Positions 10,214 to 45,287 of a DNA stretch of 50,840 nucleotides are shown piece after piece (the stretch's first letter is position 1; every line of letters begins with the position of its first letter). The notes below the pieces were generated by a model. It had not been told where the DNA came from and made no database searches. It saw nothing but the letters and a program-made list of their open reading frames with translations. The stretch spans positions 1 to 50,840 of IMG/VR virus record IMGVR_UViG_3300031862_000007. One strand, 5' to 3'. Made by a program: the position numbers and the translations under genes. This DNA comes from a virus.

Positions 10214-10672
10214 ATGAGAAAAACTCGAATTCTGTTTTTGGCGATTTTCCTTATTTTCTCTTTATGTATTGTTTCAGATACGGCCCCAACGAGATACAAA
10301 TTTCTGACGAGCGATATCACGGTTCCGATCAACACAACTTGGGTCGAGGGGACAGACTTCACATCCAAAACAATCATGCTTGCCTATGCACAATCAGCAA
10401 CCCTGACTTTTTACGTCAAAGGAAACAATGCGGCATGTTCAAAAGATGTAATTTTCAAGTTTGTGGCGTTTGATTCTTTAAGGAACAAATGGGACACGAT
10501 TGATGCTCTGGGTGGATCGGGTGTGACAGTTACAGCTAATGGAACTACGGCAGTTCAGATAACAAAGCTTCTCTATGCTTATTTTGAGAAGATCAAGTTA
10601 TTGTCGGTTCAGAATCAGGAGACCGTAGCTGGATATACGGTTGATGTGAATGTCTCGATATTTATTAAGTGA
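10214..10672 (+). CDS. Exported beta-rich protein with signal peptide (152 aa)
   Basis: The N-terminus is a clear Sec signal peptide (MRKTRILFLAIFLIFSLCIV then SDTAP). The mature part is strand-rich with repeated short Thr/Val motifs. It resembles the preceding 127-residue protein in character. An exported protein in the middle of virion genes is unusual for a phage and implies a role in the periplasm or at the cell surface. Cysteine 18 is not in a convincing lipobox. Confidence 0.65.
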   Translation: MRKTRILFLAIFLIFSLCIVSDTAPTRYKFLTSDITVPINTTWVEGTDFTSKTIMLAYAQSATLTFYVKGNNAACSKDVIFKFVAFDSLRNKWDTIDALGGSGVTVTANGTTAVQITKLLYAYFEKIKLLSVQNQETVAGYTVDVNVSIFIK

Positions 10673-10689
10673 TAAAGGCGGAGGATAAG

Positions 10690-11670
10690 ATGAAACATAC
10701 ACTGATGAAGCTTGGTTTTCTTAGTGCATTTCTTTGTGCGCTGATATTTTTGGGCACGGCGCAGATTCCGACGATCCTGCCGGTTTCGCCAATCACAGAG
10801 AATGTGCAATTTCAAAAAGAGGCGCAGTTTCTTACCAATTCCTACTATTCCATCATCAAGGGTTCTATGGCAGAGGGCTTGGCAGGTGCAGACCTGCGTA
10901 TCGGTTTGGATGAATCGAATCGCACGCTGATTATTTGCGACAGGGGGGACATTGGGACGGATTTTGGATTGACGGCAAGCAGTGCGCCGAGAATAAAGAT
11001 TTTTAGTGCCACAGGAACTAATGCACTCGATTTATATACTGGGAATATTGTTCAAAATGGCACTCAGCTTAATTTTTCTGCCCAGAAATTTGTTTTTTCT
11101 AGCGGAACAGACCAAGCCTCTGGAAATATGTATGCATTTAATTCCGATGCTGGCGCCGAACTCACCGCCGCTTCCGGCATACAATCCTGGCTCTATGTAG
11201 AACCCAAAATCAATCAATCTGGCACAGCGGCTTACAATGCTATTCTCGCCAATGTTACTGAAACGGCACTTGGAAGCGGGGCAAATAATCTACTGGATTT
11301 GCAGGTAGCAGGAACATCGAAATTCAGGGTCAATAACAAGGGTCTTTTGGCCTATGGCGCAGAATACGACAACGGCAATTCCGGCGCCGCCGACACAATC
11401 GACTGGAATAACGGCAATGGACAAAAATCAACTTTAACGGCTGCCTGCACCTATACTTTCACGGCCCCGACTTCTGGCGTTACTCGGCTTCAGCTCCGAG
11501 TCATCCAGGGCGGAACGGGAAGCTATACTGTAACTTGGCCTGCAACCGTGAAATGGCAGGCTGATACAGCACCCACTTTATCCACCGCTGTTGGCTCAGT
11601 GGATATCATCACTTTTTGGTGGGACGGCCAATTTTATCGAGGCGTAGCTTCGGTAGGATGGACAACTTGA
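10690..11670 (+). CDS. Fibre-like protein with signal peptide (326 aa)
   Basis: I chose the ATG at 10690, which follows a GGCGGAGGAT site; the upstream GTG at 10669 would disrupt the signal. The N-terminus MKHTLMKLGFLSAFLCALIF is a signal peptide ending near GTAQ. The C-terminal ~90 residues (YTFTAPTSG...GSYTVTWPATVKW...FWWDG) look like the beta domain found at the tips of many tail-fibre-like proteins. A fibre-like protein carrying a signal peptide is odd: it may be exported rather than assembled into the tail. Confidence 0.65.
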   Translation: MKHTLMKLGFLSAFLCALIFLGTAQIPTILPVSPITENVQFQKEAQFLTNSYYSIIKGSMAEGLAGADLRIGLDESNRTLIICDRGDIGTDFGLTASSAPRIKIFSATGTNALDLYTGNIVQNGTQLNFSAQKFVFSSGTDQASGNMYAFNSDAGAELTAASGIQSWLYVEPKINQSGTAAYNAILANVTETALGSGANNLLDLQVAGTSKFRVNNKGLLAYGAEYDNGNSGAADTIDWNNGNGQKSTLTAACTYTFTAPTSGVTRLQLRVIQGGTGSYTVTWPATVKWQADTAPTLSTAVGSVDIITFWWDGQFYRGVASVGWTT

Positions 11671-14256: not shown

Positions 14257-16077
14257 ATGTATCGGCACTCGGTGAAGGGACTCTATCGGTTCGACGGGAT
14301 CAAGAGCCTTGCCGGAACCTTAAACGAGCTTTCTGCGCCAACCGAAGTGCCTGAAGCTCAAGTTATAAAATGTCTTAATTTCAAGCCACATAAAGACGGA
14401 ATCAGCCGGGTCAAAAGGCCAGGATATTCGAAGTTTGACGCTTTCTATAACTTTGAGGGCCTTCCAATAAGAGGACTTTTTGATTACTGGGATGAGACTC
14501 CTGTCAATAGATATGAGGTCATTACCTCAAAAAAGATTTTTAGCCGTGCAGTAGGAGCAGGGTCGTGGTCAGAGCTTTATTCTCAAACTGCGGAGCTTGA
14601 ATTTCCAATCAAGCCCGTGGTTTATCTTCGGGAAAGACCGATTGTCGTCGGGTTTGACACAAACAGATTAGTTGAGCCGACAACGACTTATGGGCTCGGG
14701 ATTGTGGCCCCATCCTCAGCACCGACTTTAGCAGAAGGCGCAGCTGGCAGCCTCACCGGAACTTTTAAATATGTCGTGACCTACATGAGGAGCGGAAATT
14801 TTCAGGTCGAGAGCAATCCCTCTCCGGAATCCTCGCCGATAACTGTAACTGCAAAAAAAATCAACCTCTCCGCTATCCCAGTATCGACTGATCCGAAGGT
14901 GGACAAGAAGAGACTCTATAGGACGACCGCAGGTGGAGCAGTCTTTTTTTGGGTTGCCGACATAGCCAATGCCACAACGACCTATGAAGACAACATCACA
15001 GAACTTGGAGATGAAGTCAGTTATGATCGTTATCCGCCGCCCGTGGCGATATTCGCTGAAGTCTGGGATGACCGAGTTTGGTTTGTGCCGAAAAGTGATA
15101 GAAACCAACTTCACTTTACAAACAAGGGTTCAGCCGAAGAAATGGACAGCGATAACATCATCCAAGTCAAGGGAAAAGATTCTGATGAGATCATGGCGAT
15201 CAAGGCCTACATGGACTCGCTCTATATCTTCAAGCATAAGTCACCTTGGAGGCTGGATAAAATCGGCGAATCTTCTTACCAGTTGACAAAACTTCCATAT
15301 AATATCGGCACAGATGCCCCTGCTTCTGTTGCCGTCGGAGGGGGCCTCCTGATGTGGAAGTCAAAAAGGGGAATAGAGATTTTTAACGATCAAGTTATTT
15401 TTGATCCGCCGTTTTCCGATTTAATTCCCGAGACATTGGCGACTATAAATGAGGCCGCAATCGGCAAGGCCTTCGGGGAGGTGAATGAAAAGGAAGGCGA
15501 ATATTGGCTCGCCGTTCCTACTGGGGCATCAACGGAGCCAGACCTCGTTATAGTTTATGATTATATTGGGGGGAAAATAAGCAGATATATATTTGCCAAG
15601 AAATTAACTGCGATGCACAACATCAGGGATGGGAATTCAAAGCTTCAATTCATTACTGGAAGTTCAGACGGCAATCTTTATATTCAGGATTCAGGATTCA
15701 CGGATGACGGCACGCCGATTACGGCAAACTTCATGACAAAGCAGTATTGTTGTTTAACGAATGAGAAGGGGTTATGGAATGTCCTCCGCAGACTTTTTGT
15801 GGATTACATTTGTCCAACCGGAACAAGTGTTGTTTTGAAGATATACAAAAATAAGGAAAAGGTCGCAACTGTTTCAACTTCGCTTGCAGGGGTAACGCCG
15901 TCGGATTCGGACAAGGCCAGAGAGGTTATTTTAAAGCGCATAAACCTTGGATTATCTTGCGCTTATGTTTGTTTTGAGTTTAGCCATAATGAGACGCCGA
16001 CAGACGAAGTGAGAATCCTGCCGCCTGAAATTTATTTTAAGCGAAGGGTCTGGAAGTCTGACGTTAAGGCCGATTGA
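14257..16077 (+). CDS. Tail tube/nozzle or plug protein (beta-propeller type)
   Basis: A 606-residue protein with repeated beta-propeller-like segments (FAEVWDDRVWFVPKSDRNQL, MAIKAYMDSLYIFKHKSPWR, VGGGLLMWKSKRGIEIF). This is the pattern of podovirus stabilisation/nozzle proteins that extend the tail tube below the adaptor. It starts MYRHSVKGLYRFDGIKSLAG, and its stop overlaps the next start. The family match is by pattern. Confidence 0.65.
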   Translation: MYRHSVKGLYRFDGIKSLAGTLNELSAPTEVPEAQVIKCLNFKPHKDGISRVKRPGYSKFDAFYNFEGLPIRGLFDYWDETPVNRYEVITSKKIFSRAVGAGSWSELYSQTAELEFPIKPVVYLRERPIVVGFDTNRLVEPTTTYGLGIVAPSSAPTLAEGAAGSLTGTFKYVVTYMRSGNFQVESNPSPESSPITVTAKKINLSAIPVSTDPKVDKKRLYRTTAGGAVFFWVADIANATTTYEDNITELGDEVSYDRYPPPVAIFAEVWDDRVWFVPKSDRNQLHFTNKGSAEEMDSDNIIQVKGKDSDEIMAIKAYMDSLYIFKHKSPWRLDKIGESSYQLTKLPYNIGTDAPASVAVGGGLLMWKSKRGIEIFNDQVIFDPPFSDLIPETLATINEAAIGKAFGEVNEKEGEYWLAVPTGASTEPDLVIVYDYIGGKISRYIFAKKLTAMHNIRDGNSKLQFITGSSDGNLYIQDSGFTDDGTPITANFMTKQYCCLTNEKGLWNVLRRLFVDYICPTGTSVVLKIYKNKEKVATVSTSLAGVTPSDSDKAREVILKRINLGLSCAYVCFEFSHNETPTDEVRILPPEIYFKRRVWKSDVKAD

Positions 16078-18665
16078 TGACATACGAAGAATTCATCGAA
16101 ATGCTACGGGTTCAGGGAAAGCCTGGGACAATAAAAGAATCAGACTTGGCCGATGGTGCAATAACGGCCAAGAAAATCAAAGTCGGTGCCTTGACTGCCG
16201 AGACGATAGCGGCCGGCACGATTACTGCGGATAAACTCAGTTTTAATCCCTACATTATAGGCACGAATGATCTTGATGACGTCGTAGATGGAACCTCTTA
16301 CGCTAAGATATTAAGCAGTGCAGCGCAAGGCGGCCTGGTTCTTTTGAGTCAGGCGGTGGGCAATATCGATAACATAGGTGACGGCACAACCTATAAAAAA
16401 GTTTTAGCGACAGATATTTCAGCCGGACACATTCTTTTATCTTCTGTAATCGGAACCTTAGACAATGTGGCCGATGGTACAAGTTATGGGAAGGTTGCCA
16501 TAACAGATATTCAAGCAGGCCATATTTTGCTGGCTACGGCAGTAGGAAGCTTAGACAACATTGCCGATGGGTCAAATTATGGCAAGGTAGCCTTAACCTC
16601 TATTAGCGCAGGAAAAATCATTGTAGCTGGTCTTGATAGTGGCGTAACTGCTCGGATGTTCCTTGATGGCACGACCAAAACCAACATAGAGGCCTGGCGG
16701 CATGCATCGGACGTAACCCTGATAGATGGGGGGGATATCTACACCAAGTCCATTACCGCCGTTAAATTAGATATAGCTACGATAACCGATAACTTGATTC
16801 TTAATCCATCCTTTGAGCAGGCGGGGGGATGGGCGGTGGTGGAGGAAAACGGGACGGCCACGTATTCCACTGCAGACAAAACAGAAGGGACATATAGCTT
16901 ATTATTGTCTGCTCCAGCCGTAGGCTATGGATGTCGAGCTATTCCACTTGTTCCAGGGGATAAGTATACTGTTAGGGTTAAACTTAAGGGGGCGACGGCC
17001 ACGACTATTGGTTTATATATAAGAATGAATGAAAAAACCACTTATCCTGCTGGGGATTATGTAACCGCGGATTTGCGGGATAGCCGCACAGATTTCGTTA
17101 CCGACGGTGCTGCGCCATCTACTTGGACGACTTACGAATATACTTATACGGTCCCAGCAAATATCTATTGGGGTTCTTTTTCTATCTATAACTGGACTGG
17201 CGGCCCTGCGGGTGGAATCTATATAGACGAGGCAGAGGCCAGGAAGCAGTTAGGTGCGGTGCATATTGAGGATGGGGTAATAAGTTTAACGAAGTTAACC
17301 TTTACGCCTTTCGTTATAGGCACAGATGACCTGGATGACATAGCTGAGGGCACGAACTACGGCAAGGTTTTAAAGGCTGACATCTCAGCGGGGCATATTC
17401 TACTCTCAGCATGCTCCGGCAATCTTGACAATATCGCAGACGGTTCAAATTATGGGAAGGTAGCATTAACTTCTATAAGTGCCGGTAAAATCATCGTGGC
17501 TGGTTTAGATAACGACGTGACAGCCAGGATGTTCGCTGATGCCACCACTAAGACCAACATCGAAGCCTGGAGGCATGCATCGGACGTAACCCTGATAGAC
17601 GGTGGGCACATCTACACGGGTACGGTTGTTGTTGGGGCGTTGGGAAGCGACGTAATCGCCAGGGTCTTTTCCGACGGTACGACCAAAACAAACATTGAGG
17701 CCTGGAGGCATGCATCGGATGTGACGCTGATAGACGGTGGGGATATCTATACGGGGACGGTAACCGCCAATAAAATCAGCGTCACTTCGCTCTCTTCTAT
17801 CCACGCAAACATGGGAACCATTACGGCAGGAAAAATTGATGTCGGAAACATAGAAATAAACGCCGATACGGAGAGAATCCTGATGGGTGCAGCGACCGCC
17901 CCGAAAACTGGCATTGGGGTATTTATCGGAAAAGATGTAGCTGACTATGAATTCAGATGTGGTAATCCTGCGGGTCATATGATGCATTGGGATGGTGCTA
18001 CTTTATGTCTTTATAAGGATGGAACTTATTTTGTTAACGCCCAGGAACTTGAGGAGGGGGCGGCCCGAGCCAGAATGTATATACAGGGTTCTCCCTATGC
18101 TGGTGGCTTTCAGGGTAAGCTGATGAACGATGAAACGGGATATTATTGGGCGGGAACGACATATAAAATAAGTCTCACTTTTTTGAGTGGAACGAAATAT
18201 ATGTTGACCATTGATACGGCTGTGCCAGGTGGCGGCGCAGGCAGTGGCGATAGTTGCTTTATTGCAAAAACAAGAATTTTAATGGCTGACGGGAATACTA
18301 AAAAAATAGCAGATATTCAAGTAGGAGATTATGTTTTAACAAGGAAATCTGAGACATCTCCGAAATTGGTAAGGGCAAGGGTTTTGAAATTTTATGAACA
18401 TCCAGAAACCGATATATTTACAGTAATTAATGATGTTCTTGTTGTAACGCCAAATCATAGAATGTTTATCAATGGGAAATGGCAGCGAGTCGAAACTCTT
18501 AAATTGGGAGACACTCTTCTTGATGATAAAAATAGGAAAATAGCGGTGAAATCTATAAAAGAACGAAGAGAGAAGGCTGAGAAGGTTTATAACTTGGAAA
18601 TTGAAAAATACAGGACATATTTTGCTAACGGTTTTTATGCCCACAATGCAAAAGACCCTGGATAA
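16077..18665 (+). CDS. Tail fibre/spike with C-terminal HINT domain
   Basis: I place the start at the ATG 16077. Residues ~60-200 hold repeats built on DNIADGSNYGKV and S-A-G-H-I-L-L. Later repeats contain EAWRHASDVTLIDGG (three or more copies). A jelly-roll-like carbohydrate-binding segment lies near residues 240-390. From about residue 727 a HINT (Hedgehog/intein) domain starts at Cys (SCFIAKTRILMADG), has block B TPNH, and ends FYAHN followed by AKDPG. The +1 residue is Ala rather than Cys, Ser or Thr, as in bacterial intein-like domains that cleave. It probably processes or crosslinks the fibre; only five residues would be released at the C-side. Confidence 0.75.
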   Translation: MTYEEFIEMLRVQGKPGTIKESDLADGAITAKKIKVGALTAETIAAGTITADKLSFNPYIIGTNDLDDVVDGTSYAKILSSAAQGGLVLLSQAVGNIDNIGDGTTYKKVLATDISAGHILLSSVIGTLDNVADGTSYGKVAITDIQAGHILLATAVGSLDNIADGSNYGKVALTSISAGKIIVAGLDSGVTARMFLDGTTKTNIEAWRHASDVTLIDGGDIYTKSITAVKLDIATITDNLILNPSFEQAGGWAVVEENGTATYSTADKTEGTYSLLLSAPAVGYGCRAIPLVPGDKYTVRVKLKGATATTIGLYIRMNEKTTYPAGDYVTADLRDSRTDFVTDGAAPSTWTTYEYTYTVPANIYWGSFSIYNWTGGPAGGIYIDEAEARKQLGAVHIEDGVISLTKLTFTPFVIGTDDLDDIAEGTNYGKVLKADISAGHILLSACSGNLDNIADGSNYGKVALTSISAGKIIVAGLDNDVTARMFADATTKTNIEAWRHASDVTLIDGGHIYTGTVVVGALGSDVIARVFSDGTTKTNIEAWRHASDVTLIDGGDIYTGTVTANKISVTSLSSIHANMGTITAGKIDVGNIEINADTERILMGAATAPKTGIGVFIGKDVADYEFRCGNPAGHMMHWDGATLCLYKDGTYFVNAQELEEGAARARMYIQGSPYAGGFQGKLMNDETGYYWAGTTYKISLTFLSGTKYMLTIDTAVPGGGAGSGDSCFIAKTRILMADGNTKKIADIQVGDYVLTRKSETSPKLVRARVLKFYEHPETDIFTVINDVLVVTPNHRMFINGKWQRVETLKLGDTLLDDKNRKIAVKSIKERREKAEKVYNLEIEKYRTYFANGFYAHNAKDPG

Positions 18666-18921: not shown

Positions 18922-19413
18922 ATGGACGGATTAGAAGGATTGTTCGGAGGGACGACGGGTGGTGCTGGAGCTGGGGCAATGGGCGCAGGAACGGCTGGGG
19001 CAATGGGCGCAGCGGGGGCAGGTTTTCCGTGGTTGCTTGCCATTCCTATTTTATCGAGCCTTATTCAAGCCCTGACTTCAAAATCTAAAGAACAGCAACA
19101 GCAGGAAAATGTCACTAACACACTGAGGATGCTGCAACAACTCGGGATAAAACAACCCTATCAAAGCAAATATACTCAAAAGCTCGACCCGATTATCGCT
19201 ATGGCCTTGGCAAATCAACTCAAAAGGACATCAAATTGGGGATGGCCGCAGGGAATGGGTATGGACACGGGACTTCTTGAGGCTTTTCTTCAAAGCATAA
19301 CAAGCCCTAGTTCATTGCTCACGCCGCAAGGAGCACAGAAGAAAACAGTATTTGGAGAGACTAATACTAATCCCATCACCTGGGGGATAACGCCTGGAAT
19401 ATTGGGAGGGTAA
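18922..19413 (+). CDS. Gly/Ala-rich hydrophobic virion protein (163 aa)
   Basis: The N-terminus is a Gly/Ala/Met-rich hydrophobic stretch followed by a membrane-like helix (FPWLLAIPILSSLIQALTSK), then a Gln-rich helical middle. Proteins like this in podovirus ejection clusters often insert in membranes during DNA injection. It has a GGGAGGATAAA start site. The role is inferred from composition and place. Confidence 0.6.
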   Translation: MDGLEGLFGGTTGGAGAGAMGAGTAGAMGAAGAGFPWLLAIPILSSLIQALTSKSKEQQQQENVTNTLRMLQQLGIKQPYQSKYTQKLDPIIAMALANQLKRTSNWGWPQGMGMDTGLLEAFLQSITSPSSLLTPQGAQKKTVFGETNTNPITWGITPGILGG

Positions 19414-19414
19414 A

Positions 19415-20407
19415 ATGGCTATCTATCAAGGAGATCAGGGAACACTCGGGGGTGGAACTTTCAAGCCCAAGCCGCCGCGGGATGTAGAATGTTTTAGTGA
19501 TACTGATTGCCCTACGGGTTATAAATGCAAAGCAGGCAAATGCGTAAAAATTGAAACACCGGCAGAAAAAACAATAGCTTGCATTGGAGGAATTTGTAAA
19601 GAGACTGATTACTCTACGCCCGAATTGATAGCCAGGTGTCGAGGAAAGAATGTCGGCGATAAATGTGGAATAACGGAAACGGGATGTAAAAATAGTGCAG
19701 AATGTCCCATTGGTTATGAATGTAAAAATGGTAAATGTGTGAAGATAACAGTTCCACCGCCTGAAGGGGGCGGGGGCGGGGGTTGTAAAGGAGGATACAA
19801 AAACACTTCCAATCTTCCTTGTCCCAAAGGGTATAAGACAACAGGCATAGGTGGAGAGCAATGGTGCTGCCCGGAAGAGCTTACGGCCGCAAGTGAGTTT
19901 AAGTGGAGCCCCGAAATTGAAGCTCTGATGAATAGAATCTTGGCGAAGGCCAATGAACTTTTAAACCAGCCTCGTGGGCTGTCCGATGAAGAGAGGCAGG
20001 CGATTTACAACCGTTCCTTTGAACAGATTAAGGGAATGGAGAGGCCAGCCATTCAATCACGTCTGGATGCGATCTCGAGAATAGGTATGCTTGGGAGCCC
20101 CTATGCTGAGAGGGAAGTCGAAGAAGTCCAGAGACAGACGCCGCAACTTCTTGCCACGACATCAAGAGACATAGCTATTGATGAGGCTAAACGTCGGTTC
20201 AGCGAACAGCAACAAGTCTATCAGACGGTCATGCAGATGTTAGGCCAGGGGATGGGCGGTGAACAGATTGTCGAAGCCTTAAATGCGGCAAGGAGAGGAG
20301 AGGGGACAAGCGCGCTTCAAATGATACTCCAATACTTCATGTCGTTATACGGGGGACAAAACAACGCATACTGGCAGGCCATTATAAACGCCCTCGCCGC
20401 TCAATAA
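19415..20407 (+). CDS. Cys-rich ejection-cluster protein (330 aa)
   Basis: Residues ~25-160 carry about 18 cysteines, including two copies of a short module: C-F-S-D-T-D-C-P-T-G-Y-K-C-K-A-G-K-C and C-K-N-S-A-E-C-P-I-G-Y-E-C-K-N-G-K-C. This resembles eukaryote-like EB-type disulphide modules. A Gly-rich linker then leads to a helical C-terminal half (ALMNRILAKANELLNQPRG). Disulphide-rich modules in an internal virion protein are uncommon. They would form only outside the reducing cytoplasm. Confidence 0.6.
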   Translation: MAIYQGDQGTLGGGTFKPKPPRDVECFSDTDCPTGYKCKAGKCVKIETPAEKTIACIGGICKETDYSTPELIARCRGKNVGDKCGITETGCKNSAECPIGYECKNGKCVKITVPPPEGGGGGGCKGGYKNTSNLPCPKGYKTTGIGGEQWCCPEELTAASEFKWSPEIEALMNRILAKANELLNQPRGLSDEERQAIYNRSFEQIKGMERPAIQSRLDAISRIGMLGSPYAEREVEEVQRQTPQLLATTSRDIAIDEAKRRFSEQQQVYQTVMQMLGQGMGGEQIVEALNAARRGEGTSALQMILQYFMSLYGGQNNAYWQAIINALAAQ

Positions 20408-20417
20408 GGAGGCTAAG

Positions 20418-21311
20418 ATGCCAGACTTCAGCAAATTTATCCCGTCCATAATGCCGTATATCGAGATGTATCTCAGGGGGGAGTTCACCAAAAGAGAGAT
20501 TATGGACCGGCTCAAGGCACAGCTTCAAGAATATGCGGCTTGGGGTGAGGAGCAGAGGAAGACAGGCAAGCAATCATTGCAGAACGAGATCATAAAGAAT
20601 CTCTACAATCCGGAATATTTCAAAGATAAGAATATGCCGGAGCTTGCTATTATGAATTATATCCAGAAGACAAATCCGCAACTTCTTGGTGAAACTCAAG
20701 TTCCGGCTGATATCGGACAGCAGTTGCAGGACGCAACAAACGCCCTGGCTCAAATCACAAAATTCAGAATGGCCGGGGAAGCGGTGCCGGATGAACTTCT
20801 CCAAAAGGTTTCGCAGTTTTTCGGGGAAAAGGCTCTTGGAGAAACAGCCCAGGATATCATCAAGCAGAAAGAAGGGGCAGCCGAAAGAGGGGTAAGGGGA
20901 AGGGAGATCGCAGTCCAAGAGGCTCTTGTCCCGATTAGGAAGGCAGAGGTAGGGCTAAGGGGAAAAGAGTTGGGGACGGAACTCGGCGAGATGACGGCGA
21001 AGGAGGCCAGGGTGAGACTTGCTCAGCTTGCAGAGGAGAGGAGAAAATATCAAGTTCAGTTAGCGGGGATCGACGAAAAATTTGAGCCTGAAAAATCAAA
21101 GGAGGCGAAATCGGTCCTCAGGGAGATCAAGGTTCAGGAGGATAAGATCAATTCCAAATTCTCAAAGGAATTCGATGCTGAATACAAGGCACTCGCAGAT
21201 GCAATCAAGGCAAAGGGCGCAACGATTAAGCATCTTGATACCGATGAGCAATTGAGATCTTATCTCATTGAGAACGGCTACAATATTGAGAAATTGAAAA
21301 AGTATTTCTAA
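20418..21311 (+). CDS. Helical ejection-cluster protein (297 aa)
   Basis: An almost wholly helical, charged protein with long coiled-coil segments (GRELGTEL-like heptads, EERRKYQVQLAGIDEKFEPE). It is directly followed by the giant gene with an overlap (TAATGAAC), so the two are probably made together. Such coiled-coil proteins accompany the large internal virion protein in podoviruses. No specific family recognised. Confidence 0.6.
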   Translation: MPDFSKFIPSIMPYIEMYLRGEFTKREIMDRLKAQLQEYAAWGEEQRKTGKQSLQNEIIKNLYNPEYFKDKNMPELAIMNYIQKTNPQLLGETQVPADIGQQLQDATNALAQITKFRMAGEAVPDELLQKVSQFFGEKALGETAQDIIKQKEGAAERGVRGREIAVQEALVPIRKAEVGLRGKELGTELGEMTAKEARVRLAQLAEERRKYQVQLAGIDEKFEPEKSKEAKSVLREIKVQEDKINSKFSKEFDAEYKALADAIKAKGATIKHLDTDEQLRSYLIENGYNIEKLKKYF

Positions 21312-24300
21312 TGAACGGCGAAAAATACGATTTTAGTTTTCTTGATGCCTGGAACCCCCAGGAACCAGCTCTTCCATCTGCGGCTGAAAAGCAGAAAGCT
21401 GGTCGGTTTGATTTTTCTTTTCTGGACAGCTGGACGCCTCAAAGAGTGGGGCCAGAAAGAAAACCGATAGAGCTAGAGAAAAAGCCGGGGCTTGGATTTG
21501 TCGTCGGCGAGACCCTCAAAGGAACGGGGCAGGATATAGTTCAGACTCTTAAAAATTTGCTAAAGCAAAGTGGACAATTTATGACTCATCAGGTTATGGG
21601 AATTCCTCAGCCGGAAGAAGAGGTGGCGAAATTTTATGCTCCTGTGCCAGCCAAAATTGAAGAAGCACCCAAAACGCCGCTGAGGGGAGTGCTCGAGGTG
21701 GGGAAAGGACTTGGAAAATTGGGCTATGAATATGGCTCATTTCCAGTAAAGGTTGCTATTAACCTTGCCAAACATCCAAGAGAGCAAATTGTCAATGATC
21801 CACTTGGAACTTTAATGTTTCTTAGTCTTGCCTTTGCACCAATTCGTGAAGCTTTAAAAGGGGAGCCGGGTCCGCCATTAACTACTGAAAGTTTGAACAA
21901 GGCTTTTGCTGAGGCAACGAAATTGGAACTTGAACCAAAATGGAAGATTACACCTGAAGTCATTACTCAGCAACTTGTGGATAGGTATAACACCGCACTC
22001 GGCGAATTCATGAAAACAAAAGAACTCCCTCAGGCCGCTACCCCAGAGCCGAGATTTTTAGCCACCGAGAAAGGAACCGTCATTCCAGCAGAGATGCCCG
22101 AGAGGGTTTCCATCCTGGCCCGATATAAGGAGGCAGAGGGTGTCAAACCCGGGATGGAGATCAATATCAAGCAGGAGGCTGATGGCTCTTTGACCGTAAG
22201 GACGGCAGGTCAAAAAGAAATCACGCCCGCCGCAGGAGCTGAGTATCCCTATGGCTTTAACGCAAAGGGGGAGAAGACGGTCAGGGAAATCTATGGGGCG
22301 ATGCAGAACTTCAAGGCTTTGACTGAGGATGGATGGCAAATTGATTATAATCCCGAGACACGAATCGCCAAGATCGTAGGAAAGACGGAGCCGATGAAGG
22401 GGACGGTCACTCAGGAAGGGAAGGTCATCTGGACGCCAGAAGTCAAACCGCCGATTGAACCTGTAAAAATGATAGAAACGCCAGCGCTTCAAGCGGAGAA
22501 ACCGGCGGGAATTGCCGCCAGGGTAGAAGTAGGAAAACCGGTAGTTCCGACCGTGACTCAGCCAAAGGTTAGAAAAGCACCAGTCTTCACAGATCCGCTT
22601 CTGCAAACGATCAATGAAATGGGGGGGATAAAACCCAATCCCGATTATCCCGCAGGAGAGCTTAGGAGATTGGTCCCGCCTTCGCTCATCAAGTCCAAGG
22701 GTATGCCGATGGATGAGCTGGCGACGGAACTCAATTCAAAGGGATATAACTTTTTGAATGACGGCGAGCTCTATGACCGACTCGCCGGGAAGAAAGCAAG
22801 AAAAGGCGAGATGACTAAGGAAGAGTGGCGGGCGACAAAAGAAGAAAAAACGCAAGCAGAAATAGAAAAGGCGGGGGAAGAGGGAAAAGTCCTTTATAGG
22901 CGTCCGCCACCGCCCACAGAAAGGCCTCCAACTGCCGTTAAACCCATTGTGACTGCGCCAGAACGAGAGATTAAGGGGGAGGCCCCTACCCCCCTACGCA
23001 CTCCCGAAACAAAACCTGAAATAGGGCCAAAAATAGTGGAAAAAGTAGAGCCGACTGAAATTCAATTCAATAAGTCTGAAAGGGTATCTCAAAGAAACAA
23101 TGAGTTGGTATCCGTAGATGTCGCCAAAATGGATGCCGCCTGGCAGAAGGACGAGAGTTTTTATATTAAACCTGGTGAAGAGGCAATCCCTGGACGCAGG
23201 GGCCAATTTGAAGAATTCGTAAGGACAGGACAACCTATAGAGGCCCCGAATGTCAGTATCGGGACTAAGGGGCAAATATCGTTTGGAGACGGTCGGCATC
23301 GGTTTGCCGTTCTTCGTGATATGGGAGCCAAAGAAGTTAAGGTTAGCGTTCCAAGAAATCAAGCCCAAGATTTTATTGATAGATTTTCGCCTGAGGCAAC
23401 GGCGAAGGTTGTTTCAAAAAGGGTCGAACCAAAAATAGAGCCAGCCAAGGCCGATGAAATTGAAAGGGGGATTGAAGATGCGATTTTGAACCGCAAGGAG
23501 TTTACGCCGGAGCAGAAGGCTTATCTTGAAGAACGGCAGGCTTATAAAAAGTATGAATTCGAGGAAAAGCCGCCTGAGGTTGAGGAAGAGATCGCCCCCG
23601 AAGTGGCCGCCCCACGAGAACGGCTTGTCAAAGTTACAATCAAAACTCCATCCGGGGATTTTGTCCAGGAGACGATGGAATCGTCAATCCCTAAAATCCA
23701 GAATTATGCCAGAAAGTTAAAGGTCGAGGATAAGATCAAGGTAGGAGAACCCTATATAGGGAAATGGAAAGATTATCTTCCACCTTCTCAAATCGAGACC
23801 TTCCTTCAAGAAGTGATGCGCGATGTTAAGACGCTCTCGCCGGACAAGTGGGAAAAGTTTGCCGGTTATCCATTCCTTCCCGAAGTCAAGCGTGTTTTCA
23901 AGGACCTGAAGTCAAAGCAGACGATCAAGCGACTTGTGACCAGGGAAGAGATCAAGAATGAGCTTAATAAAACGCCCGAGGGAAAAGTCGAGTGGATGTA
24001 TCTCGAGACTGAACGCCAACTCAAGGAGAAGATGAAGCCGACCTGGAAGAAGGCACTTGAGACGGCTAAGCGTGCCACTATAGACACAAGCGGAAATCTT
24101 AAAACCAAGCTTTTAAAGGAATTAGGGGATGAAGGACGAAATGCGGTTATCCAGCATGATCTTGTTGCGGGAACTTCGGCCAAGGCTGAGCGGCTTTTTG
24201 AAAGAGCAGAAAAAGAAATCTATGGCGGCCTGAGCAAAGAAGAAGAGGGACTTCTCAATAGAGCCATTCAATCAAGGCGGACCATCGCCATCAGCAAATA

Positions 24301-26563
24301 TAAGCCAGAAGTCAAGCATCCGATGGGGCTCACGGGCGAGGAGCATGCGGCCTTTCTTGAAAAGATTCCTGCGAAAATCCAAGGCAAGGCAGACCTCTAT
24401 TTTGCCGAAATGAGAAAGGCACTCGATAGGCTTCACGATGAAGGGCTTTTGACCGAAGAGGCATACAAGGACTTAGCCAGCAAGGGAGATTATTCGCCCC
24501 GAAGATTCATCCAATACATTGACCCCGAGAATACCTATACCGTAGGTGGAAGAACGATCACGGTTCCCGACAGCGGCATCAAGGCTCTGGACGAAGGGAG
24601 TTTGCGAGTCATGGAGATTGACTCCCGCAATCTTCTCTCCAATGTGATCTCAAGGACAGAGGGAAGAATTTTCAGAAACAATGCCAATAAAGCGCTCTAT
24701 GAGCTGGCCGACAAAATCCCAGGGAATGGAATCGTGGAGAAGGCCGAGGTCTATAAGGTCACAAAAACTGGAAGGCCAAAGTATGAAACTGCCAAAGGCG
24801 GATACACGAAACTCAAGGCCGTCATTGACGGCCAGACAAAAGACATGATCATGCCGGATGAGTTTGCCAAGGAGTGGATAACCCGAGATCCTCTTGTCAA
24901 TCAGACAATGGCGAACATCATCGGCTGGCTCTCCATGAGCAAGCCTTTAAAAGCTTTTGCAACCGGAATAAACCCAGGATTCGCCATCGGCAATATGCCC
25001 CGTGACATCGCACATATCTGGATAACCACGAATGAATACTCAAGTTTCCTGCCAAAATACGGGGCTCAGATGATGCACGATTTAGGGACTGTAGCAAAGG
25101 ACGCTATCACAAGAGGAAAGAGGTGGCAGGATTATATTGACGAAGGCGGGGGGATGAATTTCCTTACCTATCAGGGAAGGCCATTCCATACTTCGATTAA
25201 AGGAATAAAGGGATTGCAGAAGGTTCTTGGTTGGGTAGGGGAGACATCTGAAGTCTGGTCAAGACTTGCCCTAAGGGAACGTGCTTTAAGGAATGGGAAG
25301 TCACCGACTGAGGCAACATGGACCGCTCGGAATTACCTTGATTTTAACCAAGGTGGAAATGTCATCAAGGCTTTTGATACAGGAATTCCCTACCTCAACG
25401 CTTCCGTCCAGGCGACACGAGGGTTATTCCGGGCCGTTGCCGACAGACCAGGTCAGACAATCTGGAAGCTCGGGCAAATCGGGACCCTGGCGAGCGGCCT
25501 TTACCTTGCCAACCGTCTCGGAAATAAAAAGTGCTGGGAAGCCGTGCCGGACAGGGAAAAGATCAATAATTTCATCATCACGACACCCTGGAGTGTTAAG
25601 GATAAAAACGGGAACGAAAGGCATTTTTACTTCAAGATTGCCAAAGACCAGACTCAGAGAATCTTTTGCTCAATTTTTGAGAACTTGATGGCGAAGGCTA
25701 TTGGCGAGAAAGTCAATGGTGATCAGATCGCTGGGGCCGTCTCCGATTTTATCCCCATTGTGCCGGAGCAGAATATCCCACCGACGATTGACGCTTTTCT
25801 CGGCTACATGAAAAACAAAGACTTCTGGAAAAATGAAGATATCTGGAAGGGACCGAAGGTCACGCCGAGGGAAGAATACACGGTCTATACAGACCCCGCC
25901 ATGAAGAAACTCGGCCAATTGACGGGGCTTTCTCCAGAGAGAACGGAGTATGCCTTGAGTCAGATTTTTACTCGAGGAAATATTTATACGGCTCTTGTGA
26001 GTGGTGGCTTAAACGCAATTCTCGGAGGTCAGTCGGAGGCTGACAAAAGAAAATTAACGATGGAGTTTATAACCAAGGCCGTGCCGGACATCAAGAGGGT
26101 TTTCAATATTACTCCGCCTTATTCTCAGACAGAGATAAAGCAGGCCAAGGAAGTGGCAACCGAAGAATCGACAAGAAAGTTCAAACAGGAACGCGAGCTT
26201 AATGAGATGGCTTCCCAATATTACCGCAAACTTTATGATGAGAAAACACGAGATGAAAAGCTGCTCGGCGAGATCAGGGCTTTTATTCGCCAGCAGCCAG
26301 CCGAAGACAAGGATAGGATGATCAGGTGGTTCAATAATTATGGAAAGGTTTATGACATTCCCGATCGTTCCTGGTGGTTGACGATTGCGGGGATGCCGCC
26401 CGAAACAAGGGCGACGGTTTTCTGGAATAAATATGTCGAGTCAAGCGAGGAAGAAAGGCAGGAGCTTTTGAAGCTGGCTCGAAAAGTGCCGGAGATCATG
26501 TCAGACAGATTCAAGAGGCGATTAAATTTATTGATGTCAAAGTGGGAAAATGAGAACAAATAG
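21311..26563 (+). CDS. Giant internal virion/ejection protein (1750 aa)
   Basis: A 1750-residue polyvalent-type protein. Two copies of DFSFLD-x-W-x-P occur at residues 6-16 and 33-43. Long Pro/Glu-rich low-complexity linkers fill ~250-580. Near residues 590-690 is a ParB/sulfiredoxin-like domain with FGDGRHRFAVLRDMGAKEV. The C-terminal half is helical, with a stretch (DFNQGGNVIKAFDTGIPYLN) resembling large-polyvalent-protein-associated domains. It is the last virion gene before the endolysin, as in podoviruses where the largest internal protein lines the ejection channel. The N-terminal motif is shared with the lipoprotein at 38609-39298. Confidence 0.7.
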   Translation: MNGEKYDFSFLDAWNPQEPALPSAAEKQKAGRFDFSFLDSWTPQRVGPERKPIELEKKPGLGFVVGETLKGTGQDIVQTLKNLLKQSGQFMTHQVMGIPQPEEEVAKFYAPVPAKIEEAPKTPLRGVLEVGKGLGKLGYEYGSFPVKVAINLAKHPREQIVNDPLGTLMFLSLAFAPIREALKGEPGPPLTTESLNKAFAEATKLELEPKWKITPEVITQQLVDRYNTALGEFMKTKELPQAATPEPRFLATEKGTVIPAEMPERVSILARYKEAEGVKPGMEINIKQEADGSLTVRTAGQKEITPAAGAEYPYGFNAKGEKTVREIYGAMQNFKALTEDGWQIDYNPETRIAKIVGKTEPMKGTVTQEGKVIWTPEVKPPIEPVKMIETPALQAEKPAGIAARVEVGKPVVPTVTQPKVRKAPVFTDPLLQTINEMGGIKPNPDYPAGELRRLVPPSLIKSKGMPMDELATELNSKGYNFLNDGELYDRLAGKKARKGEMTKEEWRATKEEKTQAEIEKAGEEGKVLYRRPPPPTERPPTAVKPIVTAPEREIKGEAPTPLRTPETKPEIGPKIVEKVEPTEIQFNKSERVSQRNNELVSVDVAKMDAAWQKDESFYIKPGEEAIPGRRGQFEEFVRTGQPIEAPNVSIGTKGQISFGDGRHRFAVLRDMGAKEVKVSVPRNQAQDFIDRFSPEATAKVVSKRVEPKIEPAKADEIERGIEDAILNRKEFTPEQKAYLEERQAYKKYEFEEKPPEVEEEIAPEVAAPRERLVKVTIKTPSGDFVQETMESSIPKIQNYARKLKVEDKIKVGEPYIGKWKDYLPPSQIETFLQEVMRDVKTLSPDKWEKFAGYPFLPEVKRVFKDLKSKQTIKRLVTREEIKNELNKTPEGKVEWMYLETERQLKEKMKPTWKKALETAKRATIDTSGNLKTKLLKELGDEGRNAVIQHDLVAGTSAKAERLFERAEKEIYGGLSKEEEGLLNRAIQSRRTIAISKYKPEVKHPMGLTGEEHAAFLEKIPAKIQGKADLYFAEMRKALDRLHDEGLLTEEAYKDLASKGDYSPRRFIQYIDPENTYTVGGRTITVPDSGIKALDEGSLRVMEIDSRNLLSNVISRTEGRIFRNNANKALYELADKIPGNGIVEKAEVYKVTKTGRPKYETAKGGYTKLKAVIDGQTKDMIMPDEFAKEWITRDPLVNQTMANIIGWLSMSKPLKAFATGINPGFAIGNMPRDIAHIWITTNEYSSFLPKYGAQMMHDLGTVAKDAITRGKRWQDYIDEGGGMNFLTYQGRPFHTSIKGIKGLQKVLGWVGETSEVWSRLALRERALRNGKSPTEATWTARNYLDFNQGGNVIKAFDTGIPYLNASVQATRGLFRAVADRPGQTIWKLGQIGTLASGLYLANRLGNKKCWEAVPDREKINNFIITTPWSVKDKNGNERHFYFKIAKDQTQRIFCSIFENLMAKAIGEKVNGDQIAGAVSDFIPIVPEQNIPPTIDAFLGYMKNKDFWKNEDIWKGPKVTPREEYTVYTDPAMKKLGQLTGLSPERTEYALSQIFTRGNIYTALVSGGLNAILGGQSEADKRKLTMEFITKAVPDIKRVFNITPPYSQTEIKQAKEVATEESTRKFKQERELNEMASQYYRKLYDEKTRDEKLLGEIRAFIRQQPAEDKDRMIRWFNNYGKVYDIPDRSWWLTIAGMPPETRATVFWNKYVESSEEERQELLKLARKVPEIMSDRFKRRLNLLMSKWENENK

Positions 26564-32000: not shown

Positions 32001-32169
32001 CGTCGGCTTCCTCCGGCGGATCGCAACTCGGCTTCACGATAAAAAAATTCCCGCCCTCCAAACCAATCGTTATCTCGTCCACCTCTCTCGGGTCTTCGTT
32101 CTGCTCCCTGCACAGCTCAACCCATTCATCCCAATGGGCGAGGAAAACCTTACCAGCACGGCGGTCCAT
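31993..32169 (-). CDS. Small acidic protein (58 aa)
   Basis: I chose the ATG at 32169 (after GGAGAAAACTA), not the ORF-start at 32247, which lies inside the HNH gene. The product MDRRAGKVFLAHWDEWVELC ends PPEEADDE, with the junction motif encoding the tail. Family not recognised. Confidence 0.55.
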   Translation of the reverse strand: MDRRAGKVFLAHWDEWVELCREQNEDPREVDEITIGLEGGNFFIVKPSCDPPEEADDE

Positions 32170-32714
32170 TAGTTTTCTCCAAAATATTTTTGCATATAAC
32201 GCCGGTTCATTTCTGCATGAAGCCAACGATGGTAACCAAGAGAGCAAATTAATAAATTTGAATTATGATTATCGGCCTTATTTCCATTGATATGATGAGT
32301 CATTTCACCCCGTTTTAAATATCGACCTAAAGCCTTTTCTGCAATTAATCTATGTTCTTGAATATATCCAGTTGCATTAACGAAAGGATGATTAGGACAC
32401 CAGATTAAAATATAACCCCGTGATCTTATCTTGCCGCCCTTCCAACCAGGGCATTTGTCCCCCGTCTGCTTTTGCCGAGCCAACGCCAATGCCGCTTTTG
32501 TTTGTGGTAACATCGGTTTTCCAAAATTAGGACTATTAACCCCTTTGTGTGTTTGACTATATTTATTAAGATTAGATATTACGAGTGGGGAAACTTGTCT
32601 TTTTTTATTGGCTTCAAGTAGGATGGATTTTACATGAGGCGCCATGGGTTTCCCATACATAGGATTATTTTTTCCAACGTTCCAATGTCTTTCAATTCGG
32701 TGATCAGTCATCAA
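32169..32714 (-). CDS. HNH homing-type endonuclease with NUMOD3 repeats
   Basis: A 181-residue free-standing endonuclease. Two NUMOD3-type DNA-binding motifs (NNPMYGKPM and NSPNFGKPM) precede an HNH_3 nuclease with EHRLIAEKALGR, the catalytic H-H-I-N-G-N-K-A-D-N and NSNLLICSLGYH. Such enzymes spread themselves between phage genomes. Its start has TCAGGAGGATTTG. It interrupts the small-gene array and sits directly downstream of a large stem-loop, possibly its landing site. Confidence 0.88.
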   Translation of the reverse strand: MMTDHRIERHWNVGKNNPMYGKPMAPHVKSILLEANKKRQVSPLVISNLNKYSQTHKGVNSPNFGKPMLPQTKAALALARQKQTGDKCPGWKGGKIRSRGYILIWCPNHPFVNATGYIQEHRLIAEKALGRYLKRGEMTHHINGNKADNHNSNLLICSLGYHRWLHAEMNRRYMQKYFGEN

Positions 32715-37915: not shown

Positions 37916-38287
37916 TTACCGGCAGAGACCTGTCTTGGTAAATCCGATTTCTTTCCAATGATGAGAAATATGGTGTGATTGTGATAAAAATAAACTTAGA
38001 TTCGTCGGCCTATCGTCGTTTGTTATCCCGTTTTTATGATGGACAATTTCTTTTGGTAAAATAAATCTGCCGATTATTTTTTCCATGATTAAATGTGATC
38101 GTCGGACATAACCATTCTTGTCGGCATATGGATGATTTATAGACTTGACAAGGATATAGCCGCTTTTATCCGATGTAACTCCTCCCCTCCAACGATGATT
38201 TAGTTTTCCTAATTTTGATAAACCGTTATTATTATAATTTTTGTAGTTGACATAATATTCCTTATGTAACCCATATGTTATTCGCAC
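37916..38287 (-). CDS. HNH endonuclease (123 aa)
   Basis: An HNH_3-type nuclease without NUMOD repeats: NHRWRGG, GYVRRSHLIMEKIIGR, IVHHKNGITNDDRPTNLSLF. The C-x-x-C pairs are missing, as is normal for this subtype. It overlaps the repressor gene by 10 bases. Together with the 32169-32714 gene it shows two free-standing HNH insertions in this early block. Confidence 0.85.
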   Translation of the reverse strand: MRITYGLHKEYYVNYKNYNNNGLSKLGKLNHRWRGGVTSDKSGYILVKSINHPYADKNGYVRRSHLIMEKIIGRFILPKEIVHHKNGITNDDRPTNLSLFLSQSHHISHHWKEIGFTKTGLCR

Positions 38288-38487
38288 AGTTCTCCCAACT
38301 CTATTCCTAAAGAATAACTTATGCTCTTCAATGTTTCAAGCTCAGGATTCTTTGATATCCCATTTTCAAGCCGAGAGATGTGTACTCGACTGCATCCAGC
38401 TACTTTTGCAAGATAAGCTTGGCTCCAGCCCAATTCTCTTCTTTTTTTCTTTATTTTTTTGCCGATGTTGGTTCTTGAATATTTCAT
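38278..38487 (-). CDS. XRE-family repressor-like HTH protein (69 aa)
   Basis: A complete helix-turn-helix of the XRE/Cro-CI type: IGKKIKKKRRELGWSQAYLAKVAGCSRVHISRLENG then LSKNPELETL-like helices. It has no dimerisation or protease domain, so it acts as a small repressor or Cro-like protein. It is divergent from the lipoprotein gene across an operator region. It is the best candidate for immunity control. Confidence 0.85.
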   Translation of the reverse strand: MKYSRTNIGKKIKKKRRELGWSQAYLAKVAGCSRVHISRLENGISKNPELETLKSISYSLGIELGELCE

Positions 38488-38493
38488 TTCTAC

Positions 38494-38587
38494 CCTTATG
38501 TTATATTATGTTATAACAATTTCATAAAAAGTCAAGTAGTTTTTTTAAATATTTTTCTATTGACACTCAAAAAAATCGTGATAAAAT
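38494..38587. promoter_or_regulatory. Divergent promoters and operator between repressor and lipoprotein
   Basis: Leftward: TTGACT (minus strand, 38530-38535), 16-base spacer, TAACAT (38508-38513). ATGTTATA occurs at 38498-38505 and 38508-38515, overlapping that -10, a likely operator for the XRE protein. Rightward: TTGACA at 38560-38565, 16 bases, TAAAAT at 38582-38587, close to consensus. The strong GAGGAGG site follows at 38596-38602. Confidence 0.65.
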
Positions 38588-38608: not shown

Positions 38609-39298
38609 ATGAGGAAAATAATATTTATTGTCATCCTGATTCTATCTACCTTGTCTTGTGCGACCGTGAGGGAATATCGGGCCAGATACAAACAGGACAT
38701 GAACGCCCGAGACGAAAAACTTTTCGGGACCCATCGTAGTAACTCAACGACTTACTCGCCGCTTAACGATCCTGCGCTCGGCTTGCTCCTCGGTTTGTAT
38801 ATGTTAAGCCCACATCAAGAAACATATGCTTACTCGCCGTACTTTCCGCTTTTCCCATATTATAATTCTTTTTCGAGCCTCCTGGCCTATGAAAGTGAGC
38901 TGCAAGATATCAACGACATGGAGATGTTCAAGCTTGAAATGAATACGCGGCGAATCATGGATGAGCTGAGAAGGGCGCGAGAACGGGAGGCAAGGCAACT
39001 CAGAATGGAAGTAGAGGATCTGACCGATCAATTGAAACGTACGCAAAATCAACTTGACTTTTCTTCTTTAAGTAAATGGCGATCTGAAAAATTGGACTCG
39101 GCCTGGTTGTTTAAGGAAAGTGAATCGAAAAAGCCTGACCTTAGCTTCCTGGATAAGATACCACCCGCCAAAGAAGTCTATGATTTTTCTTTTCTGGATA
39201 ATTGGAAGCCTAAAAAACCCGGGTCCTGGGGTGGAGTTGGGGCCGGTGCAGTAGGCTCTGTCCGATTCTTAGCAATTCCGAAGGTCAGGAAAGACTGA
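38609..39298 (+). CDS. Lipoprotein carrying the ejection-protein motif (candidate superinfection-exclusion moron)
   Basis: The only rightward gene in the early block. A 229-residue protein with signal peptide and lipobox (LSTLSC, Cys 17), a Tyr/Pro-rich part (70-90), a coiled coil (100-148) and then three variants of one motif: LDFSSLSKW (149-157), PDLSFLDKI (176-184) and YDFSFLDNWKP (191-201). The last matches YDFSFLD-x-W-x-P at the N-terminus of the giant ejection protein. It has its own near-consensus promoter and lies beside the repressor, the usual place for a lysogenic-conversion gene. A periplasmic decoy that blocks incoming phage proteins would fit; a late virion-linked role is an alternative. 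Confidence 0.75.
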   Translation: MRKIIFIVILILSTLSCATVREYRARYKQDMNARDEKLFGTHRSNSTTYSPLNDPALGLLLGLYMLSPHQETYAYSPYFPLFPYYNSFSSLLAYESELQDINDMEMFKLEMNTRRIMDELRRAREREARQLRMEVEDLTDQLKRTQNQLDFSSLSKWRSEKLDSAWLFKESESKKPDLSFLDKIPPAKEVYDFSFLDNWKPKKPGSWGGVGAGAVGSVRFLAIPKVRKD

Positions 39299-39475
39299 TC
39301 AGAGGCCCAGTAAAACTTTTTTCCCTCGCCTCCTCTTCAGCCAGGAACTCAGAATCATCGTCAGGAGTTGCGTCAGAGGTAAGCCGTTCTCCTGTGCTAT
39401 TCTGACCAGCTCTTGCTTCATCCACTTCTTATTTTTCGGCAACCGGAATTGAATGTCATGCTTTTCTTTGCTCAT
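39299..39475 (-). CDS. Ribbon-helix-helix protein (58 aa)
   Basis: The ORF lies directly next to the lipoprotein stop. The product begins MSKEKHDIQFRLPKNKKWM and continues with helices, matching the Arc/MetJ ribbon-helix-helix pattern (a short strand IQFRLP followed by two helices). It is convergent with the lipoprotein gene. It may regulate early genes. Confidence 0.6.
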   Translation of the reverse strand: MSKEKHDIQFRLPKNKKWMKQELVRIAQENGLPLTQLLTMILSSWLKRRRGKKVLLGL

Positions 39476-44711: not shown

Positions 44712-45287
44712 TTATGAAAATGTTCTTTTTATCTCTCCTATTTCTTCCATCATTTGAATTGCCTCTTCTTCATCAACCTCGGCCTCGCTGTCAATGGCTA
44801 GCAAAAAATCTATTTTCATATAAATTCCTTTTGTTTTTAAGGTTTTCTCCCAAGGCGAATTTTTTAGATGCGTTACTTCCGACATATCTTCAGCCTTGGC
44901 TTCCTTGTAAATTGTCGCAAGATCATTCAGAATTTCTATCTCGCTTTCCGAAAACGCATCCAAGTTATATTTCTTCTTTGCAATAAATTGAGTGAATATA
45001 TAATCTTCTGTTAATGCATCTTTCACTACGACAATTTCCATGGATTTCTTTATTTCATCGGGAAGATCATCATTTTTTATTTGTTCCCAAAAAATCTTGG
45101 GAACAGGGCCTTTTTTAAACGTGAAATATTCTAGATCTGTAACGGTTCTTCCATATTTTTTAAAATGGGAAAAATCCAAAAAGAAAAGCAATTTAAATAT
45201 TTTTAGAGCAAATGGATATTTTACTTTTGCTTTAAAAAAAAGTATTGCGTTTACTCTCTTTTCTAATTCTTTATTAATGAGTTTCAT
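44712..45287 (-). CDS. Panacea (DUF4065/SocA-like) antitoxin (191 aa)
   Basis: A 191-residue protein with the Panacea/SocA core: LKIFKLLFFLDFSHFKKYGR then VTDLEYFTFKKGPVPKIFWE. Known Panacea proteins neutralise diverse toxins. A TTGACA...TATATA promoter is 25-55 bases upstream. It lies between the P63C gene and the diverged promoter module, so the pair probably stabilises or defends the element. Confidence 0.78.
   Translation of the reverse strand: MKLINKELEKRVNAILFFKAKVKYPFALKIFKLLFFLDFSHFKKYGRTVTDLEYFTFKKGPVPKIFWEQIKNDDLPDEIKKSMEIVVVKDALTEDYIFTQFIAKKKYNLDAFSESEIEILNDLATIYKEAKAEDMSEVTHLKNSPWEKTLKTKGIYMKIDFLLAIDSEAEVDEEEAIQMMEEIGEIKRTFS

Follow-up and report, generated by a model that had tools for sequence, protein, structure and literature searches.

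A phage lipoprotein bearing the N-terminal tag of a giant virion protein, possibly as a decoy in superinfection exclusion

The virus record IMGVR_UViG_3300031862_000007, analysed here over its whole length of 50,840 bases (the window), belongs to a phage with a P22-like portal. It raises the question of why a lipoprotein encoded beside a repressor-type gene should carry the same short peptide motif as the N-terminus of a giant virion protein encoded in the late cluster. This motif, of the form DFSFLDxWxP, is referred to below as the tag. The best explanation, tentative and somewhat short of an even chance, is that the tag-bearing lipoprotein acts as a periplasmic decoy in self-directed superinfection exclusion.

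A motif common to two proteins of the window

The two genes and their tag copies are as follows.

21311..26563, + strand: giant virion protein, 1750 amino acids, bearer of the N-terminal tags; ejection/polyvalent-type by context
21329..21358, + strand: tag copy 1, DFSFLDAWNP, giant protein residues 7-16 (translation, motif scan)
21410..21439, + strand: tag copy 2, DFSFLDSWTP, giant protein residues 34-43 (translation, motif scan)
38609..39298, + strand: lipoprotein, 229 amino acids, with signal peptide and lipobox Cys17, core, long helix and private tail
39056..39085, + strand: degenerate tag copy DFSSLSKWRS, lipoprotein (motif scan, profile score)
39137..39166, + strand: degenerate tag copy DLSFLDKIPP, lipoprotein (motif scan, profile score)
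39182..39211, + strand: exact tag copy DFSFLDNWKP, lipoprotein; includes an 18-nt run in common with giant-gene copy 2

A preliminary description of this DNA, made from its letters alone, had pointed out the motif in both proteins, and translation bears it out. Residues 6-16 of the giant protein read YDFSFLDAWNP and residues 33-43 FDFSFLDSWTP; the lipoprotein carries an exact copy, YDFSFLDNWKP (residues 191-201), with the degenerate copies LDFSSLSKWR (from residue 149) and PDLSFLDKIPP (residues 176-186). A six-frame scan of the window gave five DFSFLD-like matches, two in the giant gene and three in the lipoprotein gene, while the looser pattern D[FLYW]S[FLIVSYMW]L added three matches, all unrelated. 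No other open reading frame (ORF) of the window has DFSFLDxWxP. With a motif profile, the exact lipoprotein copy scored 56.2, whereas the best score among all ORFs of the window after shuffling was 26.7 +/- 3.4 (P ~1e-5). Within the tail of the lipoprotein, the better of the two degenerate copies had P = 0.002, and both copies together were equalled in 0 of 20,000 shuffles. Additionally, tblastn of the lipoprotein against its own record independently recovered both N-terminal sites of the giant gene. Because the match has P ~1e-5 in the window and is joined by two more copies in the same tail, it is confirmed as real and not due to chance.

The preliminary description had also allowed for the motif being common in unrelated proteins, which was not borne out: when 2.9 million viral contigs were scanned for the DNA pattern, only three matches came up, all in short, chance-like frames of 35-62 codons. 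The motif as a widespread element is thus ruled out.

By context the giant protein may be an ejection protein: its gene follows the tail genes, the phage has a P22-like portal, and some of its relatives are annotated as virion proteins. It resembles the large polyvalent or ejection-type proteins described in PMC5512222 in being a giant multidomain protein of the late cluster. No LPD or other polyvalent domain was found in the window protein itself; a distant homologue, from a Desulfofustis phage, has a match to LPD38 below the cut-off (E = 4e-5).

The lipoprotein family and the private tail

The lipoprotein gene lies in the following surroundings.

38278..38487, - strand: 69-amino acid Cro/CI-type helix-turn-helix (HTH) protein, divergent from the lipoprotein gene
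38560..38587, + strand: sigma-70-like promoter TTGACA-N16-TAAAAT; a GAGGAGG ribosome site precedes the ATG at 38609
38657..38659, + strand: lipobox cysteine, residue 17, invariant in four homologues
39035..39295, + strand: C-terminal tail (about residues 143-229), private to the window and lacking in each of the three relatives
39299..39475, - strand: Arc-like protein of 58 amino acids, its stop abutting the lipoprotein stop; 79-87% identity in relatives

The designation as a lipoprotein is sound, as the N-terminal MRKIIFIVILILSTLS followed directly by C is a signal peptide with a lipobox cysteine. In an alignment of four homologues this cysteine is invariant, together with Ser at -1 and Ala at +2. 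Cys17 is the sole cysteine of the protein, and no long hydrophobic helix besides the signal helix is evident in its sequence or model. The core (about residues 1-136) is common to three relatives. The structural model has one long helix (residues 88-168) followed by a low-confidence tail, with a predicted local distance difference test score (pLDDT) of 62 overall, and the protein is predicted to be disordered from about residue 169. For the lipoprotein, Pfam gave no match above cut-off and PHROG none that was significant, and no similarity of the tail to solved proteins was found.

The promoter and the repressor-type neighbour that the preliminary description had proposed are supported as well. 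The promoter has 11 of the 12 consensus bases and is accompanied by the ribosome site, and the neighbour is the Cro/CI-type HTH protein. This HTH gene is overlapped by one of two HNH_3 endonuclease genes (37916-38287 and 32169-32714), which are 39% alike over part of their length.

The lipoprotein core forms a family of the window and three other phages, in which its gene always adjoins HTH or Arc-like repressor genes and is directly followed by an integrase gene in one and an HTH gene in two. In G001, the closest relative whose late region is complete, the lipoprotein has 140 amino acids and 28-33% identity to that of the window; as in the window, its gene is flanked by an HTH gene (51%) on one side and an Arc-like gene (79%) on the other, but it is on the strand of the HTH gene. 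Two more lipoprotein contigs were obtained with the Arc-like protein as the scan query: L034, whose lipoprotein of 131 amino acids (40% identity, E = 4e-20) has a tyrosine integrase directly behind it on the same strand, and L036, whose lipoprotein of about 142 amino acids is followed by an HTH gene. Two profile scans for further relatives returned only these four members, and single-sequence searches of viral contigs and INPHARED returned none. Between the Arc-like gene and the lipoprotein, L036 encodes a second short protein of secreted type (10218-10676), in which a collagen-like GPVGPAGPKGPA stretch occurs.

Because the family adjoins HTH and Arc-like genes, with an integrase in L034, its context suggests that the lipoprotein gene belongs to an immunity or lysogeny module. 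The claim that it stands apart from the late genes is upheld as well: it lies about 10 kb from the late cluster, has its own sigma-70-like promoter, and is found in relatives with HTH or integrase genes. A reading as a late virion lipoprotein is disfavoured by gene position and by the relatives. However, no integrase was detected or recognised in the window, and lysogeny of this phage, as well as a lysogen-expressed role of its lipoprotein, is therefore uncertain.

The tail itself sets the window apart. All three relatives' lipoproteins stop just past the coiled coil, and the extra ~85 residues that hold all three tag copies are present in only one of the four homologues, that of the window. 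Since the three relatives end after the coiled coil, the tail would most simply be a gain of the window lineage.

Tag repeats in giant proteins and the test of co-occurrence

Relatives of the giant protein were gathered by pattern-plus-tblastn scans. Most of those with about 50-75% core identity have two to three copies of a short motif at the N-terminus, and these copies are alike within one protein and nearly all different between phages, each type being private to a single phage or a small group. The tags include FSTEELFP (L007), PPSGFxLDxPGY (L009), QF[DS]WLDG (L015), LFTPLAxK (L018), an IYDLIFKDSKE-like motif (L040), TDFxPV (L041), EYxGPL (L044) and [ST]T[DE]EL[FM]G (L067); the sister pair L016 and L068 have the tag type LxLMxxAS in common, and L013, a more distant Desulfofustis phage, has PENFVPAQxFLS. 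The repeats that were tested did better than 98-100 of 100 shuffles; the L067 and L068 tags were recognised by eye, and the shuffle test left out the last few distant giant proteins. The N-termini of L042, L046 and phi46:3 gave no repeat signal above shuffles. In L007 and L015, the first ~200 residues of the giant protein also hold an inserted domain (GPGFLGTLKRPDGKVSTELS...PSLVPTLTKEEI and GAGFFGPLKRPDGMVSTELS..., respectively) among or just after the tags, which is absent from the window protein.

In the nearest relatives, similarity to the window giant protein starts only at about residue 50, directly behind the tags. Identical repeat residues use the same codon in 45 of 91 cases, against 37.2 expected (P = 0.05). 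This near-random agreement rules out recent tandem duplication, and therefore selection on the peptide is what keeps the repeats alike. L007 and L009, which neighbour the window in the core tree, carry tags unrelated to its own, and this points to fast turnover of tags within the clade. The modelled N-terminus of the giant protein has little structure (pLDDT 46). Low confidence and little structure, seen both here and where the lipoprotein tail ends, are what short binding motifs would be expected to give. The idea that the tags are beta-clamp-binding motifs was dropped, since several of them do not fit.

Bacterial genomes yielded nothing when first searched with the giant protein; a core-only profile gave a Syntrophaceae bin and an Aminicenantes bin, in neither of which the lipoprotein was found.

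In phage T4, the capsid targeting sequence is a short N-terminal peptide that addresses an internal, ejected protein. Unlike that signal, which has one common consensus, the tags come in two to three copies and differ in sequence in most phages. Tag repeats of giant virion proteins are possibly a general docking or packaging signal, and one that is apparently undescribed: a term search of the polyvalent-protein paper PMC5512222, within a literature search that was not exhaustive, found no mention of phage-private N-terminal repeats.

If the pairing of tagged giant protein and tagged lipoprotein were a rule, it should recur in relatives. Each phage's own tag was searched for in all ORFs of 12 genomes or contigs, several of them partial (the window, G001, G003, G007, G008, G009, G012, G013, G014, G015, G017 and the Desulfofustis phage). 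A second carrier was found only in the window and in none of the 11 others, so that the pair as a rule among relatives is ruled out. Covariation could be checked in one pair only (the window and G001, whose lipoprotein has neither tail nor tag), because the L034 and L036 contigs are too short to include giant genes. The tag pairing thus appears to be lineage-specific, a single-lineage event atop a wider feature of N-terminal tag repeats. The interpretation given in the preliminary description therefore holds in part: the match is not chance, the gene is not late, and its family sits in the immunity or lysogeny regions of four phages, but the expected co-occurrence of pairs failed.

A possible decoy and its alternatives

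In the decoy reading, an envelope lipoprotein of the phage immunity region would be produced in the lysogen or early in infection, and the window lineage would have added to it a flexible tail with three copies of its own ejection-protein tag. The lipid anchor at the membrane and the long helical stalk would hold this tail in the periplasm. The target bound by the tag is presumably specific to the task of the giant protein, and a lipid-anchored tag could reach only the envelope, where the partners of the incoming giant protein would be co-ejected virion proteins or host envelope factors. A multivalent decoy could then occupy the docking site needed by the N-terminal tag of the incoming protein, the entry channel of a same-tag phage would fail to assemble, and entry would be stopped. 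Periplasmic display, a docking role of the tag, competition and exclusion are all steps that we infer. Since the window has no integrase, exclusion early in infection, as with T5 Llp, would fit as well as a lysogeny setting. A candidate tag partner and candidate ejection proteins are encoded upstream of the giant gene.

18922..19413, + strand: Gly/Ala-rich protein of 163 amino acids, candidate small ejection protein
19415..20407, + strand: protein of 330 amino acids, of the candidate ejection cassette
20418..21311, + strand: protein of 297 amino acids directly upstream of the giant gene, candidate tag partner

In a comparison of the window with G001, the 297- and 163-amino acid proteins rank with the least conserved of the virion proteins: their identity over length is 0.24 and 0.28, respectively, whereas most others reach 0.45-0.77. 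This would fit a tag partner that changes along with the tag, but ejection proteins change fast anyway (PMC10883804).

Among the closest known systems is Ltp of Streptococcus phage TP-J34, a superinfection-exclusion lipoprotein of the lysogeny module that acts on the tape measure protein (PMC3952083). As with Ltp, the lipoprotein gene lies in a lysogeny module (HTH/Arc-like neighbours in four phages, an integrase in L034), and the proposed action would likewise be directed at a large virion protein entering together with the DNA. In contrast, Ltp belongs to a Gram-positive host and acts through folded, target-binding repeat domains, whereas the tail of the window protein is probably disordered and carries copies of the target's own tag; Pfam and PHROG searches and a low-confidence model revealed no relation to Ltp in sequence or repeat fold, though the Ltp structure itself was not directly compared. 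SieA of P22 blocks DNA entry via the ejection proteins gp16 and gp20 (PMC10883804). The proposed decoy would resemble it as a phage-encoded injection block acting via ejection proteins, SieA doing so in P22-like podoviruses. However, the consulted part of that source describes no ejection-protein motif mimicry for SieA, and SieA is an integral inner-membrane protein, unlike the window lipoprotein with its single, lipobox-bearing signal helix. A decoy would thus differ from both precedents by mimicry in place of a binding domain. T5 Llp is a small periplasmic lipoprotein that is expressed early and excludes the same phage (PMC9586334); it and the phi80-type Cor are very small, disulphide-bonded and act on the receptor FhuA, unlike the 229-residue window protein with its single cysteine (PMC9586334).

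Several points weigh against the decoy. The tag-bearing tail is known from one phage only, and since the relatives' lipoproteins lack it, the core must have a role independent of the tag. The lack of a second carrier in the 11 other genomes or contigs and the lack of a recognised integrase in the window count in the same direction. Furthermore, the action of the tag may be confined to the virion interior, in packaging, where a periplasmic decoy would be useless, and Ala at +2 predicts sorting to the outer membrane, although this rule is enterobacterial and may not be that of the host.

The alternative to beat, unlikely but serious, is that the tail is a recent recombination product, partly non-functional and without a settled function. 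An integrase gene after the lipoprotein gene would have been lost, and the reading frame would have run into new sequence, part of it a short DNA copy of the tag region of the giant gene. None of the three relatives has the tail, and the L034 integrase (10335-11399) lies where the window has nothing, at the junction of the lipoprotein and Arc-like genes (39298-39299). The exact copy and giant-gene copy 2 have 18 consecutive nucleotides and 7 of 8 codons in common (P = 0.0097, uncorrected and one of ten comparisons), a hint that DNA was copied between them, and a 16-nt stretch at the 3' end of the lipoprotein gene resembles the 5' start of the L034 integrase (E = 0.04, suggestive only). However, this integrase relic is weak, the degenerate copies use different codons, and three separate tag copies, two of which have diverged differently, exceed one copying event. 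The tail is also still open over about 85 codons.

It is decidedly less probable that the lipoprotein is a general, Bor-like envelope protein of lysogenic conversion, whose tag binds a host envelope factor also used by the giant protein, with no exclusion. Retention of a tag-less core in four phages agrees with a basic role independent of the tag, but this leaves unexplained why the tag is the private one of the phage's own giant protein. Improbable, too, is a virion or channel-assembly partner, providing a membrane docking site that aids the phage's own giant protein, for progeny or during entry. A shared multivalent tag, with several copies in both proteins, could mark the parts of one assembly; yet the position of the gene, its promoter and its pairing with HTH or integrase genes in relatives are against this, and no late-gene lipoprotein with a tag was found in any relative examined. 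Chance or compositional likeness, for which the shortness of the motifs (~10 residues) and the low-rate random occurrence in viral contigs might speak, is very improbable and, given the scores and the additional copies in the tail, refuted unless the background model is badly wrong.

Elsewhere in the window, a tail- or fibre-type protein of 863 amino acids (16074-18665) has a carbohydrate-binding domain and a C-terminal HINT domain of pretoxin/intein type (Pfam PT-HINT, E = 1e-16), a SocA/Panacea antitoxin-like protein is encoded in the early region (44712-45287; Pfam E = 6e-17), and at the start of the record (1-60) lie short, AT-rich direct repeats (AAGATTAAGTTAAGATCTAATT...) that may be iterons or an origin.

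The decoy reading can be extended to the clade, as a possibility that is on balance doubtful. The phages of this clade would mark the ejected giant protein with a private, multi-copy tag; a lipoprotein onto which a phage's own tag was copied would be a decoy against same-tag phages only, and tag turnover would be a means of escape. If this holds, one form of superinfection exclusion would be a decoy imitating the injected protein of the phage itself, its specificity set by a short peptide, and the private tags of many giant proteins could be read as an exclusion or docking code. Even without exclusion, the phage-specific N-terminal tag repeats point to an apparently undescribed docking or packaging signal.
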